DNA from: a virus
Length of the DNA: 40,443 bases
Virus record (IMG/VR): IMGVR_UViG_3300031621_000011
Span: 1-40,443 of that record
Strand: one strand, 5' to 3'
The notes beneath the pieces were generated by a model, which made no database searches, was not told the DNA's origin, and saw only the letters and a list, made by a program, of their open reading frames with translations. Shown here in pieces: positions 7,761 through 7,936 of this stretch (position 1 is its first letter; each line of letters begins with the position of its first letter). Both the position numbers and the translations under genes were made by a program.

Positions 7761-7815
7761 GCGAGAACTACGGAAATCTTTTAAGACCTCTTGAATAACA
7801 CCGTTAACACTTTTT

Positions 7816-7867
7816 GCCCGGGTAGCTCAGTTGGTAGAGCAGAGGACTGAAAATCCTCGTGTCGGTG
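7816..7867 (+). other. attP: Probable attP core: 5' two thirds of a tRNA-Phe(GAA) gene
   Basis: The plus strand carries a tRNA 5' half: acceptor strand GCCCGGG, D-arm GCTC/GAGC, anticodon arm GAGGA-CTGAAAA-TCCTC with anticodon GAA (Phe), and the start of the variable region and T-stem. The match to tRNA-Phe ends at 7867; no T-loop or 3' acceptor strand follows, so it cannot fold as a tRNA. It resembles alphaproteobacterial tRNA-Phe as I remember that gene. A tRNA piece next to an integrase operon is the usual sign of attP. The core is flanked by an 8-bp inverted repeat, TAACACCG at 7796-7803 and CGGTGTTA at 7863-7870. Confidence 0.85.
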
Positions 7868-7936
7868 TTAGTAGCAGTTCACATTGTTAACCTAATCGAT
7901 CTTTCGTAAATAATCAAGACCCCCCATGCACTTTTT

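Follow-up and report, generated by a model that had tools for sequence, protein, structure and literature searches.

A tRNA-Phe 5′ half as the probable attP core of a temperate-type podovirus with low-GC SAR116 hosts

A phage that recombines with a host tRNA gene through a copy of its 5′ part would leave the host promoter behind, which raises the question of who transcribes the rebuilt tRNA in a lysogen. This question is posed by the window, i.e. the whole 40,443-nt stretch of viral DNA analyzed here, in which the initial annotation had noticed a 52-base match running from the first base of tRNA-Phe into the T stem. The match was borne out. The 52 nt at positions 7816-7867 (plus strand), GCCCGGGTAGCTCAGTTGGTAGAGCAGAGGACTGAAAATCCTCGTGTCGGTG, occur exactly at three loci, each in a different genome, in a collection covering 84,980 species, and each time they form nt 1-52 of an intact 76-nt tRNA-Phe(gaa) gene beginning at the same base. 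The prefix shared by the window and the host tRNA-Phe is exactly 52 nt long, and such a match is not due to chance. The span first marked, 7796-7870, combines this core with an inverted repeat around it.

The window holds only the 5′ part of the tRNA. ARAGORN detected no complete tRNA gene, and the Rfam tRNA match at 7820-7894 scored 28.1 bits, below the cut-off of 29, with phage sequence on its 3′ side; the 3′ part of the tRNA is therefore absent. One of the three host records is alpha proteobacterium SCGC AAA536-G10, which gives its name to a low-GC family of SAR116 (PMC8547437). Allowing up to 3 mismatches, the tRNA-Phe 5′ pattern gave a single match in 45 of the 58 genomes of this family and two matches in none. 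Through its core, an uncultured ocean phage is linked to a small range of hosts, the low-GC SAR116 bacteria.

The core lies 505 bp from the start of an intact tyrosine integrase gene, in the following arrangement:

3082-5568, minus strand: T7-type single-subunit RNA polymerase (RNAP) gene, downstream of the integrase gene (int) and in the same direction (phrog_414, 619 bits)
6492-7310, minus strand: tyrosine integrase of 272 aa (PF00589, 59.3 bits), its catalytic R-K-HxxR-H-Y motif intact by inspection of the alignment
7310-7546, minus strand: 78-aa ORF between core and int, no family match
7531-7731, minus strand: 66-aa ORF, first gene of the int operon, no family match
7733-7815, plus strand: phage 5′ flank of the core, on the other strand the leader of the int operon; conserved in ten tRNA-Tyr-type relatives; in a lysogen, predicted to adjoin the rebuilt tRNA-Phe on its 5′ side
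7816-7867, plus strand: attP core, nt 1-52 of the SAR116 low-GC tRNA-Phe(gaa)
7868-7924, no strand: phage 3′ flank of the core, conserved in relatives as GCAGTTCACAT...CTAATC...ATCAAGACC
7965-7996, minus strand: terminator-like hairpin that separates the lysis genes from the attP region

Leftward from the core, the minus strand thus reads 66-aa ORF, 78-aa ORF, int, a weakly MarR-like ORF and RNAP; to the right follow the conserved non-coding stretch, the minus-strand terminator and a lysozyme gene. The conserved stretch 7868-7924 is a possible candidate region for binding of the integrase or of an accessory factor. Identity of the core with the 5′ end of a host tRNA, together with the intact tyrosine integrase encoded nearby, would place this site in the 5′-fragment class of tRNA-gene attP sites.

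The T7-type RNAP is shared with the T7-like phages (Autographiviridae), but the window was not filed in that family because its portal matches SU10_portal (PF23899, 611 bits) and its terminase is closest to that of CRP-7. With these portal and terminase genes at 18345-21955 alongside a T7-like RNAP, this is a mixed podovirus genome. The sequence TGTCCACCCTTATAC, considered as a repeated promoter of the phage RNAP, was rejected, as the window contains a single exact copy.

Relatives were collected by an RNAP search, which yielded 13 loci, and further ones were added with the flank patterns. Ten of them carry an attP at the same place with homologous flanks, in which the core is the 5′ half of tRNA-Tyr (nt 1-41/43), identical to that of the host; the exact tRNA-Tyr 41-mer was found in 34 of the 58 genomes of the same host family. 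No other Phe-type relative of the window was recovered when viral contigs were searched for the exact core. The integrases fall into two types, one comprising the window and the contig L002 (91% identical), the other the Tyr-type phages (65-70% identical to the window). RNAP identities to the window run the opposite way (70% for L002, mostly 84-92% for the Tyr-type phages), and integrase and core therefore appear, from these comparisons, to be exchanged as a module, Phe against Tyr. The L002 contig stops before attP, so its use of tRNA-Phe could not be read. Phe-type and Tyr-type phages, close relatives in other respects, lend themselves to a paired study of how integrases come to use a different tRNA. 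Host contigs that end inside tRNA-Tyr were considered as hidden lysogens and rejected, the letters up to their ends being host tRNA and not phage. Four such contigs (L089, L094, L098 and L109) end 52-55 nt into the gene, possibly because the assembly broke at a sequence that is repeated from the first tRNA base onward.

We conclude, with a probability of about 0.85, that 7816-7867 serves as attP core in a temperate-type podovirus whose hosts are low-GC SAR116 bacteria, and that this phage would integrate at tRNA-Phe and rebuild the tRNA from a phage 5′ part and a host 3′ part. In our model, recombination by the integrase takes place between the core and the tRNA-Phe gene of the host, with the crossover most likely inside the anticodon loop. 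This is the simplest reading of the shared segments in these phages, which run from tRNA nt 1, or from a few bases ahead of it, to nt 41-52, just past the anticodon stem-loop; everything 5′ of the crossover would then be restored by the phage. As the phage carries nt 1-52, an intact tRNA-Phe made of phage leader, phage 5′ part and host 3′ part would arise at the integrase-side junction. The phage flank would have to provide for its transcription, which would run counter to the int operon and away from int, and the host's own promoter would stay behind at the opposite junction, where a truncated 5′ half follows it. When integration of the window core into the locus L003 was simulated, tRNA-Phe was recovered only at the junction of phage 5′ and host 3′ parts (attR), and neither in attL nor in attP.

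A lysogen of the window's own type was not found in the 58 family genomes, where integrase matches reached only 21-41% identity, with no close integrase among them. The RNAP search of the whole SAR116 order returned a single genome with a related enzyme, G078, whose integrase is 34% identical to the Tyr-type integrase. Twenty-three of the 33 window proteins tested match G078 at 385.5-424.3 kb, with 29-79% identity and mostly in the same order. We take G078 to be IMCC1322, because the coordinates of its prophage correspond to the segment 385,000-425,000 that PMC5332604 describes as collinear with integrase-encoding environmental phage genomes, called temperate SAR116 phages. Collinearity with this IMCC1322 segment (385-425 kb) would also assign the window to that temperate group. 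Available excerpts of PMC5332604 contain no att analysis of the prophage.

The G078 prophage is bounded by a perfect 50-bp direct repeat (384647-384696 and 424515-424564) composed of nt 1-44 of tRNA-Lys(ttt) and six upstream bases. Prophage DNA adjoins the 5′ side of the intact tRNA-Lys gene, complement(384615-384690). Where this locus is unoccupied in relatives, its upstream side matches G078 beyond 424565 and its downstream side matches G078 below 384646; the upstream DNA of the host therefore now fronts the truncated tRNA-Lys half. Judged by its layout, this is a natural lysogen of a collinear phage with the anatomy of a 5′-fragment integration, in which an intact tRNA is preceded by element DNA and the displaced 5′ fragment stands at the other end. 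Rebuilding of the tRNA from a phage 5′ end, as proposed in the initial annotation, is supported by this architecture and by the simulated integration. The G078 tRNA points the same way as int and the window core the opposite way, so this prophage is an analogue and not an exact copy. As for the proposed search for prophage junctions in tRNA-Phe, neither junctions at another locus nor a core matching a tRNA 3′ end was encountered, although a window-type lysogen was not found either. No second tRNA-Lys was present among the 34 tRNAs found in G078. Prophage DNA directly precedes the only tRNA-Lys detected in this genome, so that one can test directly from where a 5′-captured tRNA is transcribed.

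Several observations were made around these tRNA-Lys loci. In G078, int shares its strand with the truncated tRNA-Lys half (L134/L133, C1:423.5-424.7 kb), so that the host tRNA promoter left behind faces the int operon, which recalls the int gene of ICEKp1, driven by a host tRNA promoter (PMC13023037). Extra partial or altered tRNA-Lys 5′ halves lie near tRNA-Lys in G076 (L201), G091 (L203), G073 (L206) and G081 (L202), and in G076 an integrase match falls inside the 8.8-kb interval between the truncated and intact copies; in these four SAR116 genomes the tRNA-Lys locus is a hot spot of 5′-half integration. Puniceispirillum has been listed among taxa without prophages (PMC5504273), whereas G078, probably IMCC1322, holds an apparently complete one, as PMC5332604 already implied.

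Which promoter would then serve the rebuilt tRNA? Two candidates were retained, one on each strand:

7759-7787, plus strand: TTGCGA-N17-TAAGAC, the best promoter candidate on this strand, located 28 nt ahead of the first tRNA base
7889-7917, minus strand: TTGATT-N17-TAGGTT, a weak candidate for the promoter of the int operon, separated from int by the core

The plus-strand pair reads TTGCGA-N17-TAAAAG in nine of the ten Tyr-type relatives, and the TTGCGA-N17 pair is the top candidate in the window and in the same nine. None of these candidates stood convincingly above shuffled sequences, by an E. coli-type scoring in which the native flanks of host tRNAs are likewise poor and fall in the same range. 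We thus agree with the earlier observation that no clear plus-strand promoter separates the integrase leader from the core: the 5′ flank of the window contains no significant one, and a phage-supplied promoter, although expected, is represented by a weak candidate. The int-operon candidate occurs in all ten relatives as TTGAT(T/A)-N17-TAG(G/T/A)TT and ranks low in the L128/L129-type loci; its score is no proof of function. It sits across the core; if it is real, integration would cut int and RNAP off from it. One may speculate about a double switch: an essential host tRNA would come under a phage promoter, and the int-RNAP operon would be parted from its own candidate promoter (7917-7889), so that the lytic operon falls silent with no need for a dedicated repressor. 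We regard this as unlikely.

Other readings of the locus were weighed against integration with a rebuilt, phage-driven tRNA. That the fragment is a relic of a past integration or a decayed phage tRNA gene, no longer used by the integrase, would fit with the failure to find a window-type lysogen among the genomes searched. It is nevertheless very improbable, given a perfect 52-nt match from tRNA nt 1 beside an intact integrase, relatives that keep perfect 41-43-nt cores of another tRNA at the same place, and a relative, the G078 prophage, that sits integrated at a 5′-half tRNA repeat. A more serious competitor supposes that integration is transient, as in T7-like cyanophages, where it occurs without stable lysogens (PMC8776855); loss of the host promoter would then rarely matter and no promoter would be selected. 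The lack of any prophage in the 58 host-family genomes speaks for this idea, which we consider possible if rather doubtful, since within this order G078 stably harbors its prophage and phage identity extends to tRNA nt 1, far past an anticodon-loop crossover, as expected if the function of the rebuilt tRNA is under selection.

The remaining alternative dispenses with a dedicated promoter on the phage and has the rebuilt tRNA read through from distant plus-strand phage transcription. It would explain why no consensus-grade promoter lies directly upstream of the core, and we give it a tentative place as a minority view. Such transcription would have to run antisense through int, the MarR-like ORF and RNAP, because these large genes left of the core are all on the minus strand, and the recurrence of the TTGCGA-N17 hexamer pair as top candidate in the window and nine of ten relatives also argues against it. 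We keep integration at tRNA-Phe with transcription from the phage 5′ flank as the preferred reading, and infer that window-type phages would integrate in this way.

Regarding the 8-bp inverted repeat (7796-7870, no strand; arms TAACACCG at 7796-7803 and CGGTGTTA at 7863-7870), its existence was confirmed, but its proposed role as integrase binding arms was rejected. It is near chance level, two further perfect inverted repeats of at least 8 bp (I2 and I5) lying within the same 341 bp, and it is not conserved as such in the ten Tyr-type relatives. A hairpin (CTAGG/CCTAG, CAAGG/CCTTG) that borders the Tyr cores on the left was also discarded, as it is not kept in the relative L125.

Among known systems, the 5′-half attP is a minority type. 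Islander lists 3,760 islands with a 3′ tRNA fragment against 159 with a 5′ fragment, of 3,919 (PMC4383910), so that the statement that most phages carry the 3′ part holds as a general rule. However, the attP motifs of T7-like cyanophages regularly match the first half of tRNA-Leu, and these phages integrate, although stable lysogens were not obtained (PMC8776855). The arrangement is therefore less unusual than first thought; the 5′-half type was also seen in S-TIP37, HTVC105P, HTVC109P, P-SSP3 and S-CBP1. A looser pattern revealed tRNA-Phe 5′ cores between int and RNAP in three more distant phages with a T7-type RNAP (L212, L215 and L222), an apparently independent use of the tRNA-Phe half.

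Like the window, the cyanophages P-SSP7 and S-TIP37 and the HTVC019P-type pelagiphages encode an integrase beside a T7-type RNAP and carry the first half of a host tRNA as attP (PMC8776855, PMC3861242). In those phages the core is placed between int and RNAP, has the orientation of int and matches tRNA-Leu, whereas that of the window is upstream of int, on the other strand, and matches tRNA-Phe (tRNA-Tyr in its relatives). The temperate SAR116 phages of the OBV_N00085 group and the IMCC1322 prophage share with the window the host order, a size of about 40 kb, collinearity and an integrase (PMC5332604), and the prophage also uses a tRNA 5′ half; its target is tRNA-Lys with the core on the int strand, in contrast to tRNA-Phe and the opposite strand here.

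With respect to transcription, bacterial tRNAs that are rebuilt retain, apart from very few exceptions, the promoter they had before, while those rebuilt by pTN3-type elements use the integrase promoter (reviewed in PMC8371274). The pTN3-type archaeal integrases resemble the window in that the site is a tRNA 5′ half and the rebuilt tRNA depends on upstream element DNA (PMC8371274). There, however, transcription of the tRNA comes from the promoter of an integrase gene that is itself split, whereas the int gene of the window remains whole; this solution is not applicable here because the rebuilt tRNA would point away from int. In the tRNA-dependent lysogeny of mycobacteriophages, survival of the lysogen also rests on phage DNA for expression of an essential tRNA (PMC10865867). 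These phages carry a complete cognate tRNA gene and a core of about 10 bp, while the window, which has no complete tRNA and falls outside that class, would rebuild the host gene. Two phages with related integrases, RHEph01 (L118) and the Limnohabitans phage YIMV22061 (L119), carry a complete tRNA-Leu beside int and not a half. Hammerhead-like ribozyme matches below the gathering score were also seen near int in the pelagiphage HTVC109P (L114:1508-1569) and the Rhizobium phage RHEph01 (L118:505-575). Set against these systems, novelty appears to lie in the switch between Phe and Tyr in closely related phages, in the placing of core and int on opposite strands, and in how the att sites of the SAR116 prophage are built.
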